Shown here: positions 10,296 to 37,064 of the stretch, in pieces
Layout of the letters: the number at the start of each line of letters is the position of its first letter
Numbering within the stretch: position 1 is the stretch's first letter
From: an uncultured Pseudanabaenaceae cyanobacterium
GTDB taxonomy: Bacteria > Cyanobacteriota > Cyanobacteriia > PCC-9006 > JAAUQQ01
DNA length: 64,000 nucleotides
Direction: 5' to 3'
NCBI GenBank assembly: GCA_938002085.1
Contig: CALLAT010000060.1
Location: 1 to 64,000, forward strand
The notes under the pieces: generated by a model
Database searches by the model: none
Told to the model about the DNA's origin: nothing
Seen by the model: only the letters and a program-made list of their open reading frames with translations
Program-made: the position numbers and the translations under genes

Positions 10296-10518
10296 ACAGC
10301 CTCCTCTTCCCCTAGCCCCTACTCCTGAAGGAGCAGGGGGACCGAGCCCAAGGTTTAAACCTGCCGTAAGCCCCAGCACTTTGATCCGCGTAAGCGGTAG
10401 CCTCAAACCAACAGCCTCCTCTTCCCCTAGCCCCTACTCCTGAAGGAGCAGGGGGACCGATCCCAAGGCTTAAACCTGCCGTAAGCCCCAGCACTTTGAT
10501 CCGCGTAAGCGGTAGCCC
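10296..10518. repeat. tandem ~115-bp direct duplication with internal hairpins
   Basis: Unit acagcctcctcttcccctagcccctactcctgaaggagcagggggaccga...gatccgcgtaagcggtagcc at 10296 and again at 10411. Inner palindromes CCCCTaCTCCtgaAGGAGcAGGGG (approximate) and CCGC-GTAA-GCGG. Confidence 0.9.
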
Positions 10519-10628
10519 AAACGTCACGACCAGCCCAGAGAAACGCACGTCAACCTGCAATCTCCTCATCCTAGAAGTCATGAGCCGCAAGGTTCAGGGG
10601 GTTAACCCGTCTGGGGGATAATCCCCCA

Positions 10629-21918: not shown

Positions 21919-22012
21919 CAAATCGTCAGTTTCTCTTTGGTTTTGAGGGCTTCAACAATTTGTTTTGGCAAGCTGACTTTGATAACAGGACTGATCTTTC
22001 TCTCTGAACTAT

Positions 22013-22097
22013 CCTGAAGTTCATTCTGAACTCAGTAGTAATAGTTGGTAGATGCACCCTGACTCATTAATCCTCGGCTCCGGCTGGGGATTTTTTG
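22013..22097 (+). ncRNA. candidate sRNA unit 1 of 6
   Basis: 5' hairpin AGTTCA-ttc-TGAACT; 3' terminator-like hairpin ATCCTCGGC-TCCG-GCTGGGGAT followed by T6. Confidence 0.5.
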
Positions 22098-22156
22098 TTT
22101 TAAATCGAGACCAGCTCTGGCCTTTGAGATAGAAGAAAGATTATTTTGCTATGTGT

Positions 22157-22240
22157 CCTGAAGTTCATTTTGAACTCAGTAGTAATAGCTGGTAGATGCA
22201 CCCTGACTCATTAATCCTCGGCTCCGGCTGAGGATTTTTT
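22157..22240 (+). ncRNA. candidate sRNA unit 2 of 6
   Basis: Hairpin AGTTCA-ttt-TGAACT; terminator stem with T-A in place of T.G (ATCCTCGGC/GCTGAGGAT), T6. Confidence 0.5.
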
Positions 22241-22301
22241 CTTTTAAAGTCCTATTCCGCTCTGACCTTTGGGATAGAAGAAAGATTATTTTGCTATGTG
22301 T

Positions 22302-22385
22302 CCTGAAGTTCATTTTGAACTCAGTAGTAATAGTTGGTAGATGCACCCTGACTCATTAATCCTTGGCTCCGGCTGGGGATTTTTT
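22302..22385 (+). ncRNA. candidate sRNA unit 3 of 6
   Basis: Hairpin AGTTCA-ttt-TGAACT; terminator stem C-G changed to T.G (ATCCTTGGC), T6. Confidence 0.5.
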
Positions 22386-22434
22386 ATTTTAAATCGAGAC
22401 TAGCTTGAGGGTAAAAGATTATTTTGCTATGTGT

Positions 22435-22518
22435 CCTGAGGTTCGAAATGAACTCAGTAGTAATAATTGGTAGATGCACCCTGACTCATTAATCCTCGGC
22501 TCCGGCTGGGGATTTTTT
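22435..22518 (+). ncRNA. candidate sRNA unit 4 of 6
   Basis: Hairpin GGTTCG-aaa-TGAACT (two A-U pairs changed to G.U); terminator hairpin, T6. Confidence 0.5.
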
Positions 22519-22579
22519 ATTTTAAAGTCCTGTTCCGCTCTGGCCTTTGAGATAGAGGAAAGATTATTTTGCTATGTGT

Positions 22580-22663
22580 CCTGAAGTTCAAATTGAACTC
22601 AGTAGTAATAATTGGTAGATGCACCCTGACTCATTAATCCTCGGCTCCGGCTGGGGATTTTTT
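22580..22663 (+). ncRNA. candidate sRNA unit 5 of 6
   Basis: Hairpin AGTTCA-aat-TGAACT; terminator hairpin, T6. Confidence 0.5.
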
Positions 22664-22723
22664 GTTTTAAATCGAGGCCTGCTCTGGCCTTTGAGATAGA
22701 GGAAAGATTATTTTGCTATGTGT

Positions 22724-22808
22724 CCTGAAGTTCAAATTGAACTCAGTAGTAATAATTGGTAGATGCACCCTGACTCATTAATCCTCAGCTCCGGCTGGGG
22801 ATTTTTTT
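22724..22808 (+). ncRNA. candidate sRNA unit 6 of 6
   Basis: Hairpin AGTTCA-aat-TGAACT; terminator stem G.U changed to A-U (ATCCTCAGC), T7. Confidence 0.5.
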
Positions 22809-22929
22809 GCTTTAAAGAGCTGTTATGGATCGCCCTATCGGATTTAGGGGGTGAGGCTTGGCAGATTGTTGACTGTGCTTCTTGATGGAGGTCGGAAGCT
22901 GTGGGGGGCTTCGCCTTGAGAGCACTGCC

Positions 22930-23070: not shown

Positions 23071-23787
23071 CTAAAATGCCCCCCCACTCGGCATCACTCG
23101 AATCTCCTCAACCACCGCTGCCGCAGGCAACAACACCGTCTGCACAATCGCCCCAGCAACCACCTCCGGCGTCATCATCCCCGCCTTATCAAAATCCGCA
23201 TCCACCGTCTCCGTATCCCAAATCGGCGTATTCACTGCCCCCGGCGACACAATCGTCACCCGAATCCCATGCTCCCGCTCCTCCACCGCAAACCCCTTCG
23301 ACAGCGAAACTAAACCTGCCTTACTCACGCCATAGGCCCCCCACTCTGGGAACGCGTTATAAGCCGCCACCGATGCAATATTCACAATCGTGCCGCTACC
23401 TGCCTTCCGCATCATTGGCAGCACCGCCCTGGTGCACTCGAACACACTCCCTAAATTGAGATTCATCACCGTCTGCCAGTCCGCCAAGGGCATATCTGCC
23501 AAGCGACCCGTGTAGCCAATCCCGGCATTATTTACCAACACATCCAAACCACCCTCACCAATGAGTGCTTGGAACTGGCCTTGAATCTCTTCAATATTGT
23601 TGAGGTCCAGCGAAAGCGTTGCAGCTTTGCGACCCTTGCCCTCCACTTCCGCCGCAACTTTGGCCAACTTGGCCTCATCCCGAGCCACCAGCAAAATGTC
23701 ATACCCCACATCAGCTAGGGCAAGGGCAGTGGCACGACCAATGCCACTACTGGCTCCAGTGATCAAGGCGCGGGGAGAGCTGGACAT
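23071..23787 (-). CDS. short-chain dehydrogenase/reductase (SDR)
   Basis: ALITGASSGIGRATALALA, NNAGIGYTG, YGVSKAGLVSLSKGFAVE. Confidence 0.95.
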   Translation of the reverse strand: MSSSPRALITGASSGIGRATALALADVGYDILLVARDEAKLAKVAAEVEGKGRKAATLSLDLNNIEEIQGQFQALIGEGGLDVLVNNAGIGYTGRLADMPLADWQTVMNLNLGSVFECTRAVLPMMRKAGSGTIVNIASVAAYNAFPEWGAYGVSKAGLVSLSKGFAVEEREHGIRVTIVSPGAVNTPIWDTETVDADFDKAGMMTPEVVAGAIVQTVLLPAAAVVEEIRVMPSGGAF

Positions 23788-24936: not shown

Positions 24937-25995
24937 TCACTGGTCTGTCGGCGCATCATGGGTGTGAGCGGCGGTAAACTGAACCGAAACTTGGCTTGAG
25001 CCTTCGGAGATCGGCGTTGTTTCTCCAGGCCATGTCCCTGTGGGGATGTGATTTTTGGGTCTTACCCGGAAGGCATAGGAACCGTTGTGAGGTGCAACCA
25101 CGCTGTAACTTGGCTTGGTGATTCGCTGCCAGCCCATGGGGAAACTGGACCAGTCATAGAGGGTGAGATAGAAGTCAAATTGCTCCAACACCTCGGGCTC
25201 TAACGCCACGCTCAAGGTTTGCCCCTTGTTCAAGCCACCATAGAAGAATTTTGTATCGGGTGCTCCCACTGGCAGATACTCTCGTGTGACCCAGGCGCTA
25301 GAAAGATGGCGGCGGTATTTGAGTAGAACGTAGCTGTAATAGTGGAGTGCTAGGTAAAAACGCTTCTTGGGATAGTCTTTGAGCTGATGGTAAAAGTCGT
25401 TGGTTTTGGGGTCGGCTAGGAAGGGCTTGAGTAACCGTTCACCGTCCAGCCGCACTGAGGGATAAGTGATGGTCTCAGCGCGATCGTAGTAGCGCACCCC
25501 TAGGGTGTAGCGTCCTGGCGGGACGTCTATGGTTACCCAAGGTTCGGCTTCAGAGACTTCTTGACGGAAGCGATGGGAGTCTAGACTTTGCACCGTCTCG
25601 AAGCTGGGAAATGCGTAGACAACCACAACCCAAGATTGAGCTGACTGCTGAATTTTGTTGATATCGAGTTCTAAAGATTGGCTGACCTGAAAGGGACCGA
25701 GGGTGCCAATCACCGCATGGGTGTTCCAGCGTGGCCCTGTGGTCATGATCACAGGTAGGGCAAAGGGGACATTCTCAATCGTGTTTGTTGAGAGAACGCG
25801 CCACTGGAGCTCTGCTTCAGATTTACGGCTCAGGCTAAAGCGGTAAAGACGGCTAAAGATCGCTCGCATGATGCGATACAACAACAGCGAGAGCGTCGCC
25901 AGTGGGATTTCCCAAAGCAGTGACCAATAATGCACAGTGTCTATCCAGCCGTAGGGTGAAATGCAGGGGAGTTCAGTGGTCTTAGCCTTATGCAC
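24937..25995 (-). CDS. uncharacterised 352-aa protein downstream of olefin synthase
   Basis: Clean ORF in the gap between ols and accA, same strand. N-terminal hydrophobic stretch; no catalytic motif recognised; not similar to acyl-ACP reductase as I remember it. Confidence 0.8.
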   Translation of the reverse strand: MHKAKTTELPCISPYGWIDTVHYWSLLWEIPLATLSLLLYRIMRAIFSRLYRFSLSRKSEAELQWRVLSTNTIENVPFALPVIMTTGPRWNTHAVIGTLGPFQVSQSLELDINKIQQSAQSWVVVVYAFPSFETVQSLDSHRFRQEVSEAEPWVTIDVPPGRYTLGVRYYDRAETITYPSVRLDGERLLKPFLADPKTNDFYHQLKDYPKKRFYLALHYYSYVLLKYRRHLSSAWVTREYLPVGAPDTKFFYGGLNKGQTLSVALEPEVLEQFDFYLTLYDWSSFPMGWQRITKPSYSVVAPHNGSYAFRVRPKNHIPTGTWPGETTPISEGSSQVSVQFTAAHTHDAPTDQ

Positions 25996-26107
25996 AGGAG
26001 TGCTTCCAGACGGTCTCCTCGCTGATTCGCTTTGCTCCCCTTACGCTACTGGATGGGCCGCAAAGCGGGCAATCTTCTAGGAGCCGTGACTAGGAGGTTC
26101 GATGGCA

Positions 26108-29100
26108 TTAGGACGAGAGGATGGCGTCCGCGATCGCTGAGGGGGCATCAAAGGGTAAATTGTGCCCGCCCTCAACCACGATACGTTTGGCATTTGTGAG
26201 GGCCTGTTGCTGAGCCTGAAGATCATCCTGGCGATTGAACTGGCTACGATCCCCATAGATCAACGTAATGGGATTACGAATCCGTCGCAGCAGCCCCAAA
26301 TAACGCGACTGGTTAATGCCATTGAAACCAATGCCTGCCCGCGTCCGCAGGAGCGGAGCCCAACGCCAGCGTATACCGCCCTCGCAGGGCTCTGTAATCC
26401 GTTTTGCCAACAGCATGGCTAGGCTTTTGGACAGGGCTGGAGTGGCCAGGCGTAGCCGCTCCGCTGCGGTTTCCACATCGGCAAACACAGGGTGCTTAGG
26501 GGGGGTAGAAAGATAGTCTAGATGTGCAGCCAACTGCTGTGCCGCTTCATCGTCACTAACATCCGTTGGCAAGATGGTTTCCACCATAATGAGCTTGAGA
26601 ATTCGGTTGGGGCGCACGCTGGCGAACAGAGCGCCGACGACGGAACCGAGGGAATGGCCCACGAGGGTGAAAGGCTTGTCGGTGATCTGCTCGACGATGC
26701 CGTCTAGGTCTGCCAAAAAGTCCATGAGGTTATAGGAATTTCCCTGTTCCACATGGGTGGAATGACCATGGCCCCGCAGATCCGGTGCGACGATTCGGTA
26801 GCCTTGGGCGGCGAGGCGGGCGGCCACTTCGATCCAGGAAGCTCCCTGTTCCAGGATGCCGTGGAGGCAAAGGACCAAGGGACCATCCGCAGGCCCCCAG
26901 GTGCAAAGGCAGATGGTGGAGCCGCCGACGGAAAGGAACTTCTCTGTCATGGTGGCTGCGAAGGCTTCGAGCTGGGTTTCGCTGGGCTGATGACTGATGG
27001 ACTCAGCTTGCGCTGCTTCTCGGGGCAGTTCGTAGGCCAACTGTTGGGCCAGCTGCTGGCTCGGTGAACCTAACAGGCGTGGCAATTTGATCTCGCGCCA
27101 GGCCTCAGCCAGACTGGCATCAATGGTGCTGCGGGAGGTGAAGTTGGGGTCGCCCAGGGACATGGATTGCTTGTGGACGCCGTCGGTCATGCGATCGCCT
27201 TGGTAAGGCGCTAACATCGCCTCTGCAAAGGGCACGCCTAGGAAATCGCAGATGCCTCGCAGCACCTGCTCTGGCTCTCGCACCAGCGCTTCGTAAGAGA
27301 CCAAGTGATAACGATCTGCAGGAATCTGTTGGCTGAGCTGCAGGGTGTTTTCATTGCTCGCTTGCCAGATTTGCTCCGCTAAGTCCAAGGGAGACTGTTG
27401 CCCATCGCCTACGAGCTTATCCATGCGCATGCGACAGAAGGATTCCAGTACGGCATAGGGGTGCCGCACGAGGTGGATGTATTTTGCACCCTCGATGCAG
27501 CGTTCGGCACGGGCTAGGTTGGCGGCGTCGCTGGCGTAGCTGGGAGATTTGTCGATCAAGAGGCGATCGCCCGCGAGGGTTTCGAGCTCTCTATAAACTG
27601 CTTCCAGGGGGAGATCCTGCGCTTCAAATTCCTCGATCAACGCCTGGCTGGCTTCCGTATCCAGGCCCTTCAAATCCATCAAGGCTCGCTGGAGCCCCTC
27701 GCCTAGGCGGGAGACGCCAAGCTGCTGCTTGCGATCGCCCAGGGTCTCGAAGGGGAGCAAGTGCAATTCTGGCGGGGAGAACAGTGCTGGATTGCCTGCC
27801 AACATCACCCGCAGCAGGGTCGAGCCGGAGCGAGGGCTAGAAAGGATAAAGGCCATGGGGCCAGCCTTTTGTTTCACCAACCGTTGGGTTGTAGTTGCCT
27901 CTGACGTAGGGGAAGCCTGAAGAGGGGAACGGGCGAGGGGAGAGACACCCGCCTGGCCGGTGCCGGTAGCAGGGTGAGTCGTACTGGCTAGTCCATGGCT
28001 CTGCTCAAATTCAGCTGTGAGATAGGCTGTCAGCGCATCCAGCCGAGGTCGCTCATAAAATTCGCGAGGGTAGATCATCAACTGCAAGTCCTGCTTGAGC
28101 TGATTGATCGCTTCCATCACCATGAGGGAATCCATCCCCAGATCCAGAAGACTGGCCGTTGGGTTAATCGTGGCGGGGTCGGCTTGGAGGATTTTAGCGA
28201 GCACCCCCCCTAGATATTGCTGCAAAATCTCCAGCCGTTGTCCAGCGGAAGCGGCCCGGAGCTGAGCTTGAATGGAGGCGGCTGGGGGAGCTTCCTTCAC
28301 ATTGGATGCCACTGCCTTGAAGTAGCCCAAGTCTCGCAGTTGGGGGAACTGAGCCAGTAGGAAGGACCAGTCGGCCTGGAACAGGCCCACCTGAGCCATC
28401 GGTGCAGTGAGGAGCTGGGGCAACTGCGCTAGGTAATCCCCAGCCGCGAGGGGCATCAGTCCCTTATTCAAACGAGTCTGATTGGCCATGCCTTCTCCCA
28501 CCCAGGGGCCCCAGTTAAGGCTCAGGGCGGGCTTACCCTGGGCGTGGCGCAGTTGAGCCAGGCTATCCAAGAAGGCGTTGGCGGCAGCATAGTTGCCCTG
28601 GCCGGGGGAACCCAGGATGGATGCAACGGAAGAGAATAGCCAGAAGAAGTCTAGTTTGTCTGCCTGGGTTCCCTGGTGCAGGTTCCAACTGCCCTGGAGT
28701 TTGGGGGCGAGTACTTGCTGCCACTGCTCCCAGGTTTGCCCCTGGAGCAGACCATCGGCAAGGCTGCCAGCGGCATGGATCACGCCTCGGAGCGGATGGG
28801 GGCCGTCACGGAGTTCAGCGCAGAGTGCGGTGACCGCAGCTGAATCGGCGACATCTAGGGAATGGACGCAACAGGTCACGCCCTGGTGCGTGAGGGCATC
28901 AAGACTGGCCTGCTGTTGGGGGCTGGGGGAGCGCCGACTGATCAACACAAGCTGTCTTGCGCCTTGGTCTGCTAACCACTGAGCCAGCTTTAAGCCCAAG
29001 GCTCCTAATCCTCCCGTGATCAAATAGCTGCTCTGGGGCTGGATCGCCACACTGGGGACTGTCGAAGAGTCTAAAGCCGTTATTTCTTGGAGGCGAGCGC

Positions 29101-32100
29101 CGTAGCGCTGCTGACCCCTTAGGGCGACTTGGTCGTCATTTTCCGGTTGCTGAACCGTATAAACCAGTTGCTCTAATTCTGATGCTTTCGGGGCGGGGCT
29201 CAGGTCAATGCAGCCTCCCCAACATTCGGGGTGCTCCAATGCAATAACCTTGCCGAGACCCAGTAGTGGACTTTGGGCGACATTGGGCTGGGTTGCACTG
29301 TTGACGCGTTGAACGCCTTGGGTGATGAGCCACAGCTTAGCTGGCGTTTGGAGGGTCAATGCTCGCAGCATCGCTAGAACAGGCGCACAGCTTTGGGATT
29401 GCGCCGCCATTAGGGAGGCATTGGTTAATGAAGTAGTTGTGGGGGCATCTATCCCCCAGCTGTTAATTACGCCCTGGAGCTTGCTGCTGGACTGCTCTAT
29501 GGTAGCTAAAACCGCTGTCAGAATGTCGCCCAGTAAGTCAGGTTGATCCGTCGGTATTTGCCAAAGGTTAGGTTCAAGCTGTTGATAGCGATCGCCGACC
29601 ACCACCCGATAGACGTTATGGCTCTGGGCTTGGAGTTGAGTCGTAATGCCATGGCCAACTCCGCTGCTATCCTCCAATACGAGCCAGCTTTGCACGGGGG
29701 GATTGGGCTGAGCTGCGATCGCACCCAACTCCTGCCAAACCACTTGATATTGATTGACGGTATCCCCAGCGCTATCCTGCGTCGTCGCGCCAGAAGCGAT
29801 GCTGCCTGCTGTCTGGACCTTGGCACTGGAGACTGCGGAGGGTTGAGCCAAACCCTCTAACCAGCAGCGCTGTCGCTGGAATGGATAGGTTGGCAAATCA
29901 AGGCGCTGGTGAGCGGTCGTGGAGTAGAAGCTAGACCAGTTGACTGGGACGCCCTGGACTGTCAGTGCCGCTAAACTATTGAGCAGCTGTGGCAAATCTT
30001 CTTTGCCGGGGTAAAGGCTGGCTAGCCAGACGGGGTCAACGGCGGTTTCTGAAGTCTTCTGGGCCTGGAAGCATTGTCGCCCCATGGACAACAGCGTGGG
30101 GCGTGGGCCAATTTCGAGGAAAATGCGATCGCCTTGCTCAGTGCTGCGAGCTTGCAAGCAGGCCATACTGGCTTCAAACAAAACGGGTTGACGAATATGG
30201 CGAACCCAGTAGCCTGGCGTTGCGATCTCATCCGTCGCCAACTGCCCCGTGAGATTTGAAATGAGTGGCAGTTGAGGCGCGTGGTAAGTCACCTGGCTAG
30301 CAACGGTCTCAAACTCTGCCAGGATGGGCTCCATTAGCTGGGAATGGAAGGCGTGGGAGACCTGTAGCGCACGACAGCGAATGCTTTCGTCCTTGAGTTG
30401 TGTACTCAACGTTTTGAGCCCCGCCTCAGGGCCAGACAGGACGATTAATTCTGGAGCGTTGTAGGCTGCGATCGCGACTTCCCCATCCATCGCCTTGAGC
30501 AATGCCTCAAAGCGTTCTAGCTTGGCAAAGACCACCATCATCCCCCCCCCCGTGGGTAGGGACTGCATCAACTTGGCCCTCGCGGTGATCAGTCTCAGCC
30601 CATCTTCGAGGCTAAAGACACCGGCCAGACAAGCTGCCACATACTCACCCACGCTATGGCCCAACACCACTGAAGGCCGAACGCCCCAGGATTGCCAGAG
30701 CTGAGCCAAGGCATATTCAATGGCGAATAGAGCGGGTTGCGTGTAAATCGTTTGGTTGAGTTCACTGCTGGCACTGCCGTAGAGCAACTCAATCAGGTTC
30801 AGCTCTAGTCGGGGGGCGAGGATCTCGGCACAGCGATCCAGAGCGGCTTTGAATACGGGCTCGGTTTGATAAAGCTGCTGGCCCATGCCGGGGGACTGAG
30901 AGCCTTGACCCGTGAACAGAAAGGCCACTGTGGGATTGGGCTGGGCCTGGGCTTGGTGTAGCTCAGAGGGCTCACCCTGGATAAAGGCTTGGAGCTGGGC
31001 TTGGAGCTGTTCAGGAGACTGAGAAAGCACCGCCAGCCGATGTTCAAAGGCCGTTCGCCCTGTATTGGCACTAAAGCAAAGGTCGCTCAGTTTTGCATCG
31101 GTATGGTGCGTCAGCCAGTCGCTGTAGCGTTGGGCGAGCGCCATCAAGGCTGGAGCCGTCTTCGCTGAGAGGGTCAGGAGCTGATGGACTTTATCTGGCT
31201 CTATTGTCTTGCTTTGATTAGTTGCTTGAGCAATTGAGGCGTCTTTGCTTAGGGGCGCTGCAACTGGAGCTTCACCCAGGATGACATGGGCATTTGTGCC
31301 CCCAAAGCCAAAGGAGCTGACGCCTGCCAGGCGAGGCCTGATGCCTCTGGGCCAGGATTGGGCTTCAGTGGGAATTTTGAGGGTTTCATTCAAGTTGATG
31401 TGGGGATTCAACTCCTGCAAATGCAGATGGGGAGGAATGACCTCCTGTTGTAGAGACAAGATTGACTTGATCAGGCCTGCCACCCCCGCTGCGGCTTCTA
31501 GGTGGCCAATATTCGTTTTGACTGAACCAATCCACTGCTGCTTCGATGCTTCCGCCTCTCCAGCTTCTGCTGTCAGTCCCTCTGAAAAAACGGCCTGCAA
31601 TGCATTCAGTTCAATGGGATCTCCCAATGAAGTGCCTGTGCCATGGGCTTCTATGTAGCCGATGTCAGTTGCCTTAGCATCTGCCTGGGCCAGCGCTTGA
31701 CGAATAACGGCCTGCTGAGCGCGGCCATTGGGGGCTGTGAGGCCGTTGCTGCGACCATCTTGGTTGATGGCTGAACCTTGAATCACGGCTAGGATGCGAT
31801 CGCCATCCCGCTCTGCTAGGCTCAGTCGCTTCAGCAGCAGCAAGCCGCAGCCCTCACCCCGCACATAGCCATCGGCCTTGGCATCAAAGGTTTTGCAGCG
31901 GCCATCTTCCGCCATCATTCCGGCTTGGCTGAAGACTTGGGTGAGGTCTGGAGAGAGGGTGAGGTTCACGCCCCCCGCGATCGCCAGGTCACAATCGCCA
32001 TTATTTAAACTTTGACTGGCTAAATGCACCGCCACCAGGGAAGACGAACAGGCGGTGTCCACGGCTAGAGAAGGCCCTTGCAAATCCAAGAAATAGGACA

Positions 32101-34738
32101 GACGATTGGCTGCCACGCTATGGGCATTGCCCGTCCCGGAATAGGCATCCACCGGAATGCCTTGGTTCGACTGCAACTGAGAATAGTCACTGCTACTGAG
32201 ACCGACAAACACGCCGGTATTGCTCCCAGCCAACTGGGGAGCTGGAACGCCCGCCTGTTCCAAGGTCTCCCAGGCAACCTCTAATAGCAGGCGCTGTTGG
32301 GGGTCCATGCGCTGGGCTTCTCGGGGAGAGAGACCAAAAAACCGAGGCTCAAACTGATCTACTTGCTCCAGGAATCCCCCCCATTCCGGCTTGCCGGTTG
32401 GCCAGCGATGGGTGGGTTGAATGGCATCTTTCCCCTGGATTAACAGGTCCCAGAAGTCTTGGGGGCTATTGGCACCAGGGAAACGGCAGCCTAGACCGAC
32501 AACCGCGATCGCTTCATGCACCGCTGATTTGCGAGGCGAAGCTGCTTGGGCCTGGGCTGTTGCCTGGGCATGCTGTGCAGTCTCTGGCTCGAGTTGATGG
32601 GCTAGATAGCTAGAGAGACTATCAATGGTGGGGTAGTCATACACCAGCGTTGGAGATAGTTTTAGCCCTAGGAGATCTTCTAGCTCCGCAGATAGCCTGA
32701 CAACCTTTAAAGAATCCAGGCCAAAGCTAGCCATGGGCTCTTGGTAACTCAGGCCCTGGGGCGAAACGGCCATGAGTTCACCGAGACGATTGGCCAGCCA
32801 AGTCGCAATTTCTCGCCTGCGAGGATTGGCAACGGGGCTAAAGTTGGTGGGTATTCGCCCATTAGAGTTCGCCGAGTTCGTCGATTCTGCCGGTACAACA
32901 GCCTTTTCACCAACAGCAGCATTCGCTTGATCCGATGGGGCGTCGCCTGCTTGCCACTTTGCGACAACCCGCAAACTATCCTTCAGAAAGCCGTTTCGAC
33001 AGGCATAGCGTTGAATCTTGCCGCTGGATGTTTTTGGAATGCTATTGGTGCGGAGCAGGAGGACTGCATGGGGCTGGAGGCCATGGTGCTGAATAATAGC
33101 CTGGCGAATGGCTTGGGTGACCTGATCTCCCTGGAGTTTGCGTAGGGCTCTTCGGTGAACCTCTTGGACAACCACGAGCTGCTCGTCACCGTCGATGTCA
33201 ACGGAAAAAGCTGCGCTAGCGGCAACCTGCAAGTCTGGATGACTCTGGACGACGGTTTCTTCAATGTCCTGGGGATAGTGGTTGCGCCCCCGAATGATGA
33301 TCAAGTCTTTCAGACGTCCTGTGACAAAGAGTTCCTCGTTTTTGAGGAACCCAAGGTCGCCTGTGCGCAGAAATTCTTGCTCCTGAAGGCCGTTGTCTTG
33401 GTGATCTCCATTCCGATGGTTTGGGAGTGCTGGAACGGGGACCTCGGCCACTTTGGCTTGGAAGCAAGAACGGGTCAGTTCTTCGCGCTTCCAATAACCC
33501 TGGGCAATGCTGGGACCGGAAACCCAAATCTCTCCCACCTCTCCATCCGGCAGCGCGGCACAATTCTCTGGATCGACGATCAACATTGACTGGCCCGCGA
33601 GGGATCGCCCGGAGGCCACAAGGTCCAACCCTTGATCGGCCTGCTTCGGTGCATAGGTCTGGCGCTGCTCCAATGCCTGACCGTCCACAGTCGTCAGGAT
33701 GGGCTCTACTTCCCGATTCCCCCCGGTCACCATCAAGGTGGCCTCTGCCATGCCGTAGCAAGGGTAAAAGGCGTTGCGCTGGAACCCGCATTCTGCAAAG
33801 GCTTCTGCAAACAGCTCCAACGTGTGAGCCCGCACCGGCTCGGCGCCCGTGAAGGCAATCTTCCAGCGACTCAAGTCTAGGTTGGCTTTCTGCTCGGCTG
33901 TGATCTGCTTTGCACAAAGCTCATAGGCAAAGTTTGGGCCACCACTGGTACTCCCCCCATAGTCAGAAATGACCTGGAGCCAGCGTAGGGGCCGCTGCAA
34001 AAAACTGACGGGTGGCATAAACACCATGGAAGCGCCCAGATATAAGGGCTGGAGAACGCCGCCAATCAACCCCATATCGTGGTACGGAGGTAACCAGGAG
34101 ATCACCTTACTATGGATATCGTCCTGGAATCCTTGATTGATCAAGGCAGAATTGTGGATCAAGTTGCCATGGCTCACCATGACGCCCTTGGGAGATCCGG
34201 TGGAGCCACTGGTGTATTGCAAGAAGGCTAGCTCATGGCCAGCAGGATTCGTTGGCTGCCAGGCGTCTGCTAGGCCTGCAATGCCATCCACACCGCCTAG
34301 AACTTCATCATCCGTCGCTAAGCAATGAATCTCTGTGGCATCGGCTTGGATGAGCTTGCCTGCGAGCTTGGTTTTCAACTCTCCCGTGGTGAGGGCAAAC
34401 CGGGCTTCCGCATCATTAATAATGGCCTGGAGCCGTTCCATGGAACGATTGGCTCGGGGCGGATAGGCGGGGACTGCCACTGTCCCTGCGTAGAGGCAGC
34501 CAAAGAAAGCTGCCACGAAGTCTAGACCCGGTGGATAGAGCAACAGCGCCCGCTCGCCCTCTGCCCCTGCATTTCGTAGCGTTGTGGCGATCGCCCTGGC
34601 TCGCTGGTCCAAGTCAGCATAGGAGAGCACTCCTGTGACGGTTTCCCCGTCTTGAAGAAAGGTAAAAACCGTTTTGTCTGACAGGTTCTGCGCATGTTGA
34701 CGCAGCAACGCTACAAAATTGGGGAAGGAGTGGGACAT
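26108..34738 (-). CDS. ols: terminal olefin synthase (type I PKS: FAAL-ACP-KS-AT-KR-ACP-sulfotransferase-thioesterase)
   Basis: FAAL (LQYTSGSTGSPKGVMVSHGNL), ACP (FGLDSLKVV), KS (VDTACSSSLVAVHLA, EAHGTGTSLGDP, NIGHLEAAAG), AT (GHSVGEYVAACLAG, HAFHSQLMEP), KR (TGGLGALGLKLAQWL), ACP (LGMDSLMVMEAI), ST (LSSPRSGSTLLRVMLAGNP), TE (LVGHSLGSVVGALFA). Order matches CurM/Ols-type synthases. Confidence 0.95.
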   Translation of the reverse strand: MSHSFPNFVALLRQHAQNLSDKTVFTFLQDGETVTGVLSYADLDQRARAIATTLRNAGAEGERALLLYPPGLDFVAAFFGCLYAGTVAVPAYPPRANRSMERLQAIINDAEARFALTTGELKTKLAGKLIQADATEIHCLATDDEVLGGVDGIAGLADAWQPTNPAGHELAFLQYTSGSTGSPKGVMVSHGNLIHNSALINQGFQDDIHSKVISWLPPYHDMGLIGGVLQPLYLGASMVFMPPVSFLQRPLRWLQVISDYGGSTSGGPNFAYELCAKQITAEQKANLDLSRWKIAFTGAEPVRAHTLELFAEAFAECGFQRNAFYPCYGMAEATLMVTGGNREVEPILTTVDGQALEQRQTYAPKQADQGLDLVASGRSLAGQSMLIVDPENCAALPDGEVGEIWVSGPSIAQGYWKREELTRSCFQAKVAEVPVPALPNHRNGDHQDNGLQEQEFLRTGDLGFLKNEELFVTGRLKDLIIIRGRNHYPQDIEETVVQSHPDLQVAASAAFSVDIDGDEQLVVVQEVHRRALRKLQGDQVTQAIRQAIIQHHGLQPHAVLLLRTNSIPKTSSGKIQRYACRNGFLKDSLRVVAKWQAGDAPSDQANAAVGEKAVVPAESTNSANSNGRIPTNFSPVANPRRREIATWLANRLGELMAVSPQGLSYQEPMASFGLDSLKVVRLSAELEDLLGLKLSPTLVYDYPTIDSLSSYLAHQLEPETAQHAQATAQAQAASPRKSAVHEAIAVVGLGCRFPGANSPQDFWDLLIQGKDAIQPTHRWPTGKPEWGGFLEQVDQFEPRFFGLSPREAQRMDPQQRLLLEVAWETLEQAGVPAPQLAGSNTGVFVGLSSSDYSQLQSNQGIPVDAYSGTGNAHSVAANRLSYFLDLQGPSLAVDTACSSSLVAVHLASQSLNNGDCDLAIAGGVNLTLSPDLTQVFSQAGMMAEDGRCKTFDAKADGYVRGEGCGLLLLKRLSLAERDGDRILAVIQGSAINQDGRSNGLTAPNGRAQQAVIRQALAQADAKATDIGYIEAHGTGTSLGDPIELNALQAVFSEGLTAEAGEAEASKQQWIGSVKTNIGHLEAAAGVAGLIKSILSLQQEVIPPHLHLQELNPHINLNETLKIPTEAQSWPRGIRPRLAGVSSFGFGGTNAHVILGEAPVAAPLSKDASIAQATNQSKTIEPDKVHQLLTLSAKTAPALMALAQRYSDWLTHHTDAKLSDLCFSANTGRTAFEHRLAVLSQSPEQLQAQLQAFIQGEPSELHQAQAQPNPTVAFLFTGQGSQSPGMGQQLYQTEPVFKAALDRCAEILAPRLELNLIELLYGSASSELNQTIYTQPALFAIEYALAQLWQSWGVRPSVVLGHSVGEYVAACLAGVFSLEDGLRLITARAKLMQSLPTGGGMMVVFAKLERFEALLKAMDGEVAIAAYNAPELIVLSGPEAGLKTLSTQLKDESIRCRALQVSHAFHSQLMEPILAEFETVASQVTYHAPQLPLISNLTGQLATDEIATPGYWVRHIRQPVLFEASMACLQARSTEQGDRIFLEIGPRPTLLSMGRQCFQAQKTSETAVDPVWLASLYPGKEDLPQLLNSLAALTVQGVPVNWSSFYSTTAHQRLDLPTYPFQRQRCWLEGLAQPSAVSSAKVQTAGSIASGATTQDSAGDTVNQYQVVWQELGAIAAQPNPPVQSWLVLEDSSGVGHGITTQLQAQSHNVYRVVVGDRYQQLEPNLWQIPTDQPDLLGDILTAVLATIEQSSSKLQGVINSWGIDAPTTTSLTNASLMAAQSQSCAPVLAMLRALTLQTPAKLWLITQGVQRVNSATQPNVAQSPLLGLGKVIALEHPECWGGCIDLSPAPKASELEQLVYTVQQPENDDQVALRGQQRYGARLQEITALDSSTVPSVAIQPQSSYLITGGLGALGLKLAQWLADQGARQLVLISRRSPSPQQQASLDALTHQGVTCCVHSLDVADSAAVTALCAELRDGPHPLRGVIHAAGSLADGLLQGQTWEQWQQVLAPKLQGSWNLHQGTQADKLDFFWLFSSVASILGSPGQGNYAAANAFLDSLAQLRHAQGKPALSLNWGPWVGEGMANQTRLNKGLMPLAAGDYLAQLPQLLTAPMAQVGLFQADWSFLLAQFPQLRDLGYFKAVASNVKEAPPAASIQAQLRAASAGQRLEILQQYLGGVLAKILQADPATINPTASLLDLGMDSLMVMEAINQLKQDLQLMIYPREFYERPRLDALTAYLTAEFEQSHGLASTTHPATGTGQAGVSPLARSPLQASPTSEATTTQRLVKQKAGPMAFILSSPRSGSTLLRVMLAGNPALFSPPELHLLPFETLGDRKQQLGVSRLGEGLQRALMDLKGLDTEASQALIEEFEAQDLPLEAVYRELETLAGDRLLIDKSPSYASDAANLARAERCIEGAKYIHLVRHPYAVLESFCRMRMDKLVGDGQQSPLDLAEQIWQASNENTLQLSQQIPADRYHLVSYEALVREPEQVLRGICDFLGVPFAEAMLAPYQGDRMTDGVHKQSMSLGDPNFTSRSTIDASLAEAWREIKLPRLLGSPSQQLAQQLAYELPREAAQAESISHQPSETQLEAFAATMTEKFLSVGGSTICLCTWGPADGPLVLCLHGILEQGASWIEVAARLAAQGYRIVAPDLRGHGHSTHVEQGNSYNLMDFLADLDGIVEQITDKPFTLVGHSLGSVVGALFASVRPNRILKLIMVETILPTDVSDDEAAQQLAAHLDYLSTPPKHPVFADVETAAERLRLATPALSKSLAMLLAKRITEPCEGGIRWRWAPLLRTRAGIGFNGINQSRYLGLLRRIRNPITLIYGDRSQFNRQDDLQAQQQALTNAKRIVVEGGHNLPFDAPSAIADAILSS

Positions 34739-35132
34739 CTAGGGATTCAGCGACTTCTCTGAATTGTTAATAATCTCTGAAGATCGAGATCTAATCATAC
34801 TGTCTAAGGTCTGACCGCTTCTACTCACCCCTGTGAGCCCTGGAATCAGGCAACCTCTAACCTCCTCGTCTCGTTCTCCTCGTTGGAGGATCGGTCGGAA
34901 ACTTAAGGTCTGTTTGGTTTGGGGAAGGCTTGTTCAGTCTTGAAACAGGACTGATGCACTTTCTGAACAAGGGCTTTGGGTTAAGCCATGAGGATTGATG
35001 AATCCCGCCATCCAATTTGTTGTTCCCCTTAGATAAAGGGATGGTCTAATTGGTTTTTTGTTCCAAAGCGGATTGAGACATCAATCGTTGGCGAGGATTG
35101 AGGCCATCATTTTCTAACTGGCTTGAGCCTCG

Positions 35133-35843
35133 TCAGGCAGCCATGGCATTGTCGTAGCTGGACATGCTCAAGACTTCTTGGAAGCTAAAGCCGATGTCCT
35201 GGAGCGTTTCGCCGTACTGAATCGTAAATTCCTCTTCCAACGACTCCAGGTCCATGCCCAGGCGAGCTGCATCTTGCCCAATCCTCGTCAAAATTTGCCA
35301 AACGATGGGCAGTATTGTCTGATTGACAGCTTGGATCTCAGTTTTGACGGTCTCGAAATGTGCTTTGAACCAGGCTTGGCCCAGTTTCAAATGCTCATGC
35401 TCGTCCTTGAGGGCGGTTTCAGTGACCCTGCGGGAAAAATCGTCGGCTACGGGGAGATAGGCGTTGTAGAGCGCGATCGCCAAGCATTCCACCACGAAGG
35501 ACTGAATCAGGAGACAAGGGACCAGCTGCTCTTGAGCCGATGCTGCTGCAAACCGTTCGCGCAGGGGGGAAAACACATCCTCAGCCCAATTAAAATCTGC
35601 CTCAATCCCTAAATGTGTCCCACAGGATTGAAATCCATTTTGGTGCCTCCGCTCCATGCGAGCGGCATTGAGGAGTTCATCGCGATGCTGGGGTAACATC
35701 TCCGCCAGCCTGAGGTAATTGTTGTGGGCTTCCTGTTCACCTTCAATTACGATGCCGTTCAAGCGGCTATAGGCTTCTCTGTAGTCGGCACTGTCGTAGT
35801 CCGGCGTAAGAGCGACGGTTGGATGGACCTTGAGAGGGAGCAT
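35133..35843 (-). CDS. aldehyde-deformylating oxygenase (ADO)-like non-haem di-iron protein
   Basis: 236 aa: YREAYSRLNGIVIEGEQEAHNNYLRLAEMLPQHRDEL, ARMERRHQNGF, CLLIQSFVVECLAIALYNAYLPVAD, KDEHEHLKLGQAW. All six ligand positions (E, ExxH, E, ExxH) retained; colinear with cyanobacterial ADO. Confidence 0.92.
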   Translation of the reverse strand: MLPLKVHPTVALTPDYDSADYREAYSRLNGIVIEGEQEAHNNYLRLAEMLPQHRDELLNAARMERRHQNGFQSCGTHLGIEADFNWAEDVFSPLRERFAAASAQEQLVPCLLIQSFVVECLAIALYNAYLPVADDFSRRVTETALKDEHEHLKLGQAWFKAHFETVKTEIQAVNQTILPIVWQILTRIGQDAARLGMDLESLEEEFTIQYGETLQDIGFSFQEVLSMSSYDNAMAA

Positions 35844-35920
35844 GACGCGAGGTTCTCCTGAACAACTGCGACGTTAACCTAGATCCTGAGGGGAATACCT
35901 GAGGAGGACTGGGATTACGC

Positions 35921-36742
35921 CTAGTCTATCGGCTTTGGATCAGAGGGGCCAGCTTGGAAGTGATGTACGGCTGTGAGCGCCGTGACCCAGCCCTGGGCGA
36001 GATCGGTGAGAATGCGATCGCCTTTCTCTGGGTTGGCCGCTGTCGCATCTCCAATGACGCCACTGCGACTAATATCTCGGGTGACCCAAGAAACGGGTAG
36101 CTTTCCCTCTAATGAGATCAACCCGTCCTTAAGGCGTTGATCCGGATATTCAGCCACAGCATTATTCATCTTGACCGTATCGGGCAGTAACGAGAGTAGC
36201 AAGCTGGTTTCCGCATCTCCAGCATGGATCCCCTCGGCCAGCTCCTTAGGACTGAGCCAGTCGGCAACGCGGTGCTCTACATTCCAGATGAAAAACGGAA
36301 AAATCCAAAAATCTGGAAACCGCTGATGCAAATCTCGGGCCACAATGTCCAAAACCTGCGGCTGTCCTCCATGGGCATTGGCAAAGACTAACTTTCGAAA
36401 GCCTGATTGATAGAGACTCTCCGCTGTTTCTGTTAGGACTCGACCCAAGGTCTCGGCGCTGAGCATGAGGGTGCCAGGGAAGTGGCAATGCTCGTTAGAT
36501 TTGCCGACGTATTGGGGAGGCAAGGCATAGGCTGGGATGGCTGGGTCTAGCGTTTCCAGGGCATGACCTAAAACGCCCGTGGCGATCGCGCTATCCACCG
36601 CCAACGGTAAATGAGGCCCATGCTGCTCAATTGCCCCCAAGGGCTGTATCAGCACCACGTTTTCCTTGTCGGGCATCTCCTGAACATCGGTCCAGCTGAG
36701 ATAAGCGTAATAACGATGGGGAGGGATGAAACCGTGCATCAT
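35921..36742 (-). CDS. creatininase family protein
   Basis: VVLIQPLGAIEQHGPHLPLAVDSAIATGVL, FANAHGGQPQVLDIVARDL, GIHAGDAETSLLL. Confidence 0.93.
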   Translation of the reverse strand: MMHGFIPPHRYYAYLSWTDVQEMPDKENVVLIQPLGAIEQHGPHLPLAVDSAIATGVLGHALETLDPAIPAYALPPQYVGKSNEHCHFPGTLMLSAETLGRVLTETAESLYQSGFRKLVFANAHGGQPQVLDIVARDLHQRFPDFWIFPFFIWNVEHRVADWLSPKELAEGIHAGDAETSLLLSLLPDTVKMNNAVAEYPDQRLKDGLISLEGKLPVSWVTRDISRSGVIGDATAANPEKGDRILTDLAQGWVTALTAVHHFQAGPSDPKPID

Positions 36743-37064
36743 GGCGGTGAAGGTCTTGCCTTGTAAAGCTTTGAAGGAAAATTGGAGATGGGCAATCCAA
36801 CGGCTATTAATCCAGCGAAGCCGCTGGGCTAATGCCTGAGGAAATAACGGCCATACCTCAATATCATTTCAAAAGAAAGACCGAATGGTTGCAAAGCAAT
36901 GCAGCGCTTAATATGGATAAACCTCTGACGAACGATTTAGTGCTATCTAATACCCGTGGATGCGCGTCGAGGTGAATTATTTCCCAGGGAGCCCTGGCTT
37001 TCCAAGGGGATAACTCCGCTATTTAGCGACTTGCATCGTTCTTATTTTATTAACTGGTTTGGTT

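Follow-up and report, generated by a model that had tools for sequence, protein, structure and literature searches.

Gene Content of the Locus

The window, i.e., the whole stretch of 64,000 nucleotides analyzed here, contains a gene for an aldehyde-deformylating oxygenase (ADO)-like protein adjoining a gene for olefin synthase (Ols). The features of this locus are given below in the order of the minus strand, together with the block that differs from the haplotype with ADO and acyl-ACP reductase (AAR) of another genome of the same genus, herein referred to as G005.

35921..36742, minus strand: creatininase-family amidohydrolase (PF02633), left edge of the swapped block
35133..35843, minus strand: ADO-like di-iron protein, 236 aa (TIGR04059, PF11266, AlphaFold2 and Foldseek, omega 0.11 in its clade)
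26108..34738, minus strand: olefin synthase Ols, 2876 aa, FAAL-ACP-KS-AT-KR-ACP-sulfotransferase (ST)-thioesterase (TE) (Pfam domains, active-site motifs)
24937..25995, minus strand: DUF6208 (PF19713) protein, 331.7 bits
23892..24866, minus strand: accA, acetyl-CoA carboxylase alpha, usual follower of ado-aar (profile matches)
23071..23787, minus strand: SDR oxidoreductase, usual follower of accA in ado-aar-accA loci (PRK07454 over cut-off)
25135..36750, no strand: approximate block differing from the ADO-AAR haplotype of G005 (blastn and identity profiles)

As the sequence-only reading had described, the ADO-like gene lies immediately upstream of a complete Ols gene on the same strand, at a distance of 394 bp. 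The full domain set of Ols and every motif checked are present, and its sulfotransferase region has 49-62% identity to Ols of other families. A scan for promoters and terminators between the two genes gave no signal above chance.

In 80 named ADO loci, AAR was found within reach in 69, accA in 45, and SDR in 33; no DUF6208 was found near any of them by this query. Since ado-aar-accA(-SDR) has been described as the usual cyanobacterial order (PMC4094844), the Ols-DUF6208 pair fills the AAR slot in the window locus. Like the Ols pathway of Synechococcus PCC 7002, the window genome combines the complete eight-domain enzyme with a DUF6208 gene. In contrast to that pathway, Ols in the window occupies the AAR slot of an ado-aar-accA-SDR locus and has an ADO-family gene attached. 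Where Ols loci of other families were inspected, accA, ADO, and SDR were not seen nearby.

Two tandem repeats were also observed in the window. A 145-base unit, present in 5.7 copies at 22012-22816, adjoins a CpeS-like gene, and an 87-base stretch matching this unit occurs once in the locus L015 of G005. A 115-base unit forms two tandem copies, 97% alike, at 10296-10522; this region and the sequence just beyond it match L015 between 2509 and 2779.

Identity and Metal Core of the ADO-Like Protein

The window gene encodes a genuine ADO-family di-iron protein. Its frame is intact from ATG to TGA and, as had been noted from the sequence, colinear with ADO. The protein matches the NCBIfam equivalog TIGR04059 with 288.6 bits (cut-off 222.65, E 3.6e-86) and PF11266 with 288.3 bits (5.6e-86), and its strong PDB matches are ADOs (aldehyde decarbonylases) without exception (4quw, 2.6e-74). 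The AlphaFold2 model (pLDDT 90.5) has the predicted ferritin-like eight-helix fold of ADO. With this model, the best Foldseek match is 4kvq (TM 0.91/0.96, 1.0 A), and all 26 structure matches at E <= 0.001 are ADO chains.

Compared with cyanobacterial ADOs (TIGR04059; PDB 4RC5, 4KVQ), the protein shares the fold (TM ~0.9), the acidic helix 7, the gene position ahead of accA, the second-shell residues Y39, R62, Q110, Y122, N123, and D143, and the six di-iron ligands. These ligands, E32, E60, H63, E115, E144, and H147 in Synechococcus elongatus (Se), correspond to E36, E64, H67, E119, E148, and H151 in the window protein. They are conserved in all four members of the ADO-like clade described below, which extends the earlier observation for the window protein. 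It differs from cyanobacterial ADOs by its identity of only about 50% to the S. elongatus enzyme, close to the half estimated by eye, by its membership in a single long-stem clade, by the adjoining Ols, by the lack of a detected AAR in the genome, and by an altered substrate channel and helix 8.

The sequence-only reading had further held that the surroundings of the ligands are changed. The motif DEHEHLKLG is indeed present in the window, but it is confined to this species; the three clade relatives read DEYQHLNFG, which is near canonical. Likewise, the change of FDNY to HNNY (F to H at Se36) is real but not unusual, since canonical ADOs carry F, Y, or H at this position (e.g., EAHDNY in L030). 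The changes marking the whole clade are located elsewhere.

Distribution of ADO, AAR, and Ols in Cyanobacterial Genomes

The presence of ADO, AAR, and Ols was analyzed in 390 cyanobacterial genomes, with overlaps read by hand from three tables. ADO was found in 351 genomes, AAR in 356, and true Ols in 34. Matches of at least 299.8 bits were considered true Ols; other PKSs that carry a sulfotransferase reach 222 bits, which leaves a clean gap.

ADO and Ols were found together in only four genomes: G000, to which the window belongs, and G001, G002, and G003, all from one family. No ADO was found in the remaining 30 Ols genomes. Ols and AAR/ADO are described as alternatives not normally found together, and ADO beside Ols is a rare arrangement in this survey. 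According to the literature, no cyanobacterial genome contains both hydrocarbon pathways, and no pseudogenes of either pathway have been found in strains carrying the other (PMC3903477, PMC6361979). The pair described here breaks this rule, with the ADO half of the alkane pathway next to Ols.

No AAR over the family cut-off was found in any of the four genomes. ADO without AAR thus characterizes 4 of the 4 ADO-like/Ols genomes vs. 2 of the 347 others (p = 2e-8), and these two are drafts (G272, 91% complete; G278, 69% complete). The completeness of the four genomes is 62.6% for the window's own and 87, 88, and 93% for the others, and the probability of AAR being missed in all four by incompleteness alone is about 4e-4. 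The window genome itself contains a single ADO, the ADO-like gene, with no second canonical copy.

Extra, non-standard ADO-family proteins are known as second ADO homologues in AAR/ADO strains, such as Cyanobium gracile PCC 6307 and Cyanothece PCC 7425 (PMC3903477). Unlike the window genome, in which the diverged ADO is the only one and no AAR was found, these strains have retained AAR as well as a standard ADO. A very diverged second ADO copy was also found in G254 (L189; 38% identity to the window protein, branch of about 6), a genome that has a normal ADO and AAR as well.

A mirror half-pathway was observed in five genomes of the genus coded g82 (G133, G209, G298, G336, and G339), which have strong AAR matches and Ols but no ADO. 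AAR alone would make aldehydes in these genomes; this combination was not noted in the literature examined.

Two Haplotypes at One Syntenic Place

The order to which the window genome belongs is represented by six genomes from two genera, all of them MAG-like drafts. G000, G003, G004, and G005 belong to the genus of the window, and G001 and G002 to its sister genus. By sequence match, G002 corresponds to CALIJJ010000036, G001 to JAAUOP010000029, and G004 to CALLPZ010000185; the record names are "uncultured Pseudanabaenaceae" for G002 and G004 and "Synechococcales cyanobacterium CRU_2_2" for G001.

Four of these six genomes (G000-G003) have the ADO-like gene adjoining Ols, together with DUF6208 and without AAR. 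As far as the contigs reach, the order is [creatininase]-ADO-like-Ols-DUF6208-accA-SDR, with accA found next after DUF6208 in G000, G002, and G003. In G004 and G005, creatininase, a canonical ADO, AAR, and accA are found in synteny with the window, and Ols is absent. Additionally, a gene for a cyclopropane-synthase-like methyltransferase (CMAS, PF02353) is located between Ols and DUF6208 in G003 (L084:3856-4971) and G001 (L011:3835-5331); the window has no such gene.

The two haplotypes differ within a block of approximate extent. Homology between the window and G005 at the DNA level, 84-86% outside the block, stops near 25134, restarts inside the creatininase gene, and returns to the flank level past about 37050. 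At the protein level, the identity is 91-97% in the outer flanks, 75% for creatininase, and 51% for ADO. The window creatininase is closer to that of G002 from the other genus (82%) than to that of G005. The conserved flanks are closer to G005 than to G003 (accA, 97% vs. 90%; SDR, 91% vs. 77%). Since it is G003 that shares the Ols haplotype with the window, parsimony suggests that the ADO-AAR haplotype of G004 and G005 is the derived state within the genus. A reverse swap, from Ols to ADO-AAR, may thus have taken place in these two genomes.

DUF6208 as a Probable Partner of Ols

In the survey of 390 genomes, DUF6208 over the cut-off was found in 33 of the 34 Ols genomes vs. 2 of the 356 others (Fisher p = 2e-44), and one of the latter two is 73% complete. 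The co-occurrence persists where the genes are unlinked, e.g., in G163, with Ols at 1.23 Mb and DUF6208 at 2.36 Mb. This distribution suggests that DUF6208 is probably a so far unrecognised partner of Ols in olefin biosynthesis. The single-sequence structure model of DUF6208 was too poor for use (pLDDT 44.6). A single clear exception to the linkage was observed: G370, an ADO and AAR genome with two ADO matches, has a DUF6208 gene and no Ols match.

No DUF6208 gene was detected in G004 or G005 in this survey. However, G005 carries a frame-shifted remnant of the DUF6208 3'-end (L015 5092-4900; the final 60 codons align at 52% identity), located between accA and the fatty-acid desaturase gene that follows AAR. 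Because DUF6208 is so tightly tied to Ols, this stump is best read as the scar of a former Ols locus. The desaturase gene itself (L015:5119-6039), which lies between AAR and the remnant, was considered as a shared resident of Ols loci and rejected, as the examined Ols loci gave no match to it.

Origin and Selection

The ADO-like proteins of G000-G003 group together as a single clade (100/100), whose stem measures 1.42 substitutions per site. In the wide-sampling tree, this clade is located inside cyanobacterial ADO, rather than with other ferritin-like proteins, as sister to the ADO of G004 and G005 (93/82); the branch is long and the exact place is not firm. Phenylalanine at Se217 is common to the ADO-like proteins and those of G004 and G005, the only two of the 27 comparison sequences to carry it. 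The clade is thus probably derived from the ADO of its own family. Of the three possibilities raised by the sequence-only reading, a retained and repurposed ADO is the best supported, but given the single copy and this grouping it would be a diverged orthologue and not a paralogue; an ancient paralogue is disfavored on the same grounds.

The ADO-like gene is kept by purifying selection, with some relaxation. In the codon model, omega is 0.111 for the ADO-like clade and 0.045, i.e., about 2.5 times lower, for canonical ADOs. Fixing omega at 1 for the clade is worse by 170 log units. Pairwise NG86 dN/dS values of the ADO-like genes are about 0.10-0.11.

Active Site, Channel, and AAR-Docking Surface

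Residues were compared with 27 canonical ADOs, comprising those nearest to the query and that of S. elongatus; "invariant" below refers to this set. Lists of functional residues were taken from PMC5356278 and PMC5007808. Among 109 invariant columns, 60 are unchanged in all four ADO-like proteins. All 11 invariant columns of the metal core are unchanged (p = 0.001), vs. 8 of the remaining 16 channel columns taken from the literature (p = 0.79). Of 17 channel residues, 9 are identical in all four proteins, 3 are changed in some, and 5 are changed in all (I24L, F86V, F117L, A121T/L, and V184I/M). Remodelling of the channel as a special signal was therefore rejected, the channel positions being altered at the background rate. 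According to PMC5007808, aldehydes longer than C12 are blocked by the substitution A121F; with the five shared changes, long-chain aldehydes may no longer fit the channel of the ADO-like proteins. The gate residue W178 is changed in three of the four.

The acidic patch of helix 7 in ADO docks AAR (PMC7089970). Its docking acids E196, E200, and D201 are kept in the ADO-like proteins, except for Q at 196 in G003 and the replacement D201E. Moreover, helix 7 is more acidic in these proteins, with 7-8 acidic residues vs. 5-6 and an extra acid at 199. On helix 8, none of the four proteins keeps the AAR contacts R218 and M221. At otherwise conserved positions, changes found in the window protein only include Y145H and N149K, as well as one at A209; N149K and other Y145 variants have been reported in a few cyanobacterial ADOs (PMC5356278).

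Possible Functions of the ADO-Like Protein

The favored scenario starts from the family ancestor, in which, as synteny suggests, AAR of the conserved ado-aar-accA-SDR locus would have been replaced in place by Ols-DUF6208, with ADO not being lost together with AAR. ADO would then have diverged along its long branch, the purifying selection described above having kept it since. Its product would still work as a di-iron oxygenase that activates O2 and consumes electrons, with the hydrophobic channel buried inside the protein. The substrates would most likely be long-chain aldehydes from a non-AAR source, which would be deformylated, or a close long-chain substrate near Ols. On balance, we lean toward the ADO-like protein being a retained, AAR-independent di-iron oxygenase descended from the ADO of its own family and most likely acting on long-chain aldehydes. 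For deformylation of aldehydes as the precise function, the case is finely poised and falls a little short of even. The retention of the acidic docking patch without AAR counts against the favored scenario, as do the five channel changes, the omega raised about 2.5-fold over canonical ADOs, and the draft state of all six genomes. No alternative source of fatty aldehydes was identified in these genomes. LuxC matches had 22-26 bits at a 21-bit cut-off, were located in frames of 1034-1039 aa, and occurred in G001 and G002 only; they were not convincing. Strong matches to PF07993 reductase domains were mostly found in long NRPS/PKS-like ORFs in genomes of both pathway types, and these candidates were rejected as well.

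The main rival explanation is a new substrate or a tailoring role with Ols, in which the di-iron center would oxidize, desaturate, or otherwise tailor the Ols product or acyl substrate; we regard it as possible but rather unlikely. Such a role would fit the constant placement of the gene just ahead of Ols, in the same orientation, in all four genomes from both genera, the very long stem, the channel changes common to all four proteins, and the loss of helix-8 AAR contacts with the acidic surface kept. The CMAS genes of G001 and G003 are a further hint of modified chains. However, the gene position is already accounted for by descent from ado-aar-accA, the channel has changed no more than the background, and the lack of ADO in 30 other Ols genomes indicates that Ols has no need of it. 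A more tentative variant is a natural hybrid hydrocarbon locus, in which ADO would either tailor with its di-iron center as a partner of Ols or deformylate aldehydes supplied by a new donor docking on the acidic helix 7.

A relic in slow decay since the loss of AAR, as also proposed from the sequence, seems improbable. The elevated omega, the window-only changes at Y145, N149, and A209, and the divergence of the G003 copy would agree with decay; this copy has 61% identity to the window copy and is more diverged from it than those of G001 and G002, a trend opposite to that of the neighboring genes. On the other hand, the frame is open in all four genomes, which span two genera, omega is far below 1, and the metal core is intact. 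These features, along with the lack of AAR, argue against both a decaying relic and half of a complete second pathway. That AAR was missed, or that some other explanation holds, is more improbable still. The specific proposal of a genome with both pathways, with AAR in an unassembled part, is not supported and appears very unlikely: the low completeness of the window genome and the intact docking helix would allow it, but AAR is missing from all four genomes, Ols fills its slot, and the helix-8 contacts are changed throughout. Finally, it is hardly credible that faulty assembly or binning brought an Ols contig and an ADO locus together: all of the genomes are drafts, the Ols frame of G001 has a break close to the end, and in G003 the locus is divided between two contigs, but the same junctions occur, in clearly diverged sequence, in the window and the separate assemblies CALIJJ010000036 and JAAUOP010000029.

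Implications for Hydrocarbon Pathways in Cyanobacteria

In one small cyanobacterial group, an olefin-synthase gene lies in the usual place of the AAR half of the alkane pathway, and the diverged ADO half next to it stays under selection. The pathway swap can be seen in situ within a single genus: the two haplotypes share a syntenic position, half of the alkane pathway survives in the Ols haplotype, and the ADO-AAR haplotype bears what appears to be a pseudogene scar. These genomes point to natural strains for testing exclusivity, its direction, and its cost. The window offers an ADO whose AAR-independent role is open to assay, and DUF6208 can be named as a protein that probably functions together with Ols. 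If the hybrid-locus explanation were true, these cells would make hydrocarbons or oxidized lipids that neither known pathway yields alone.
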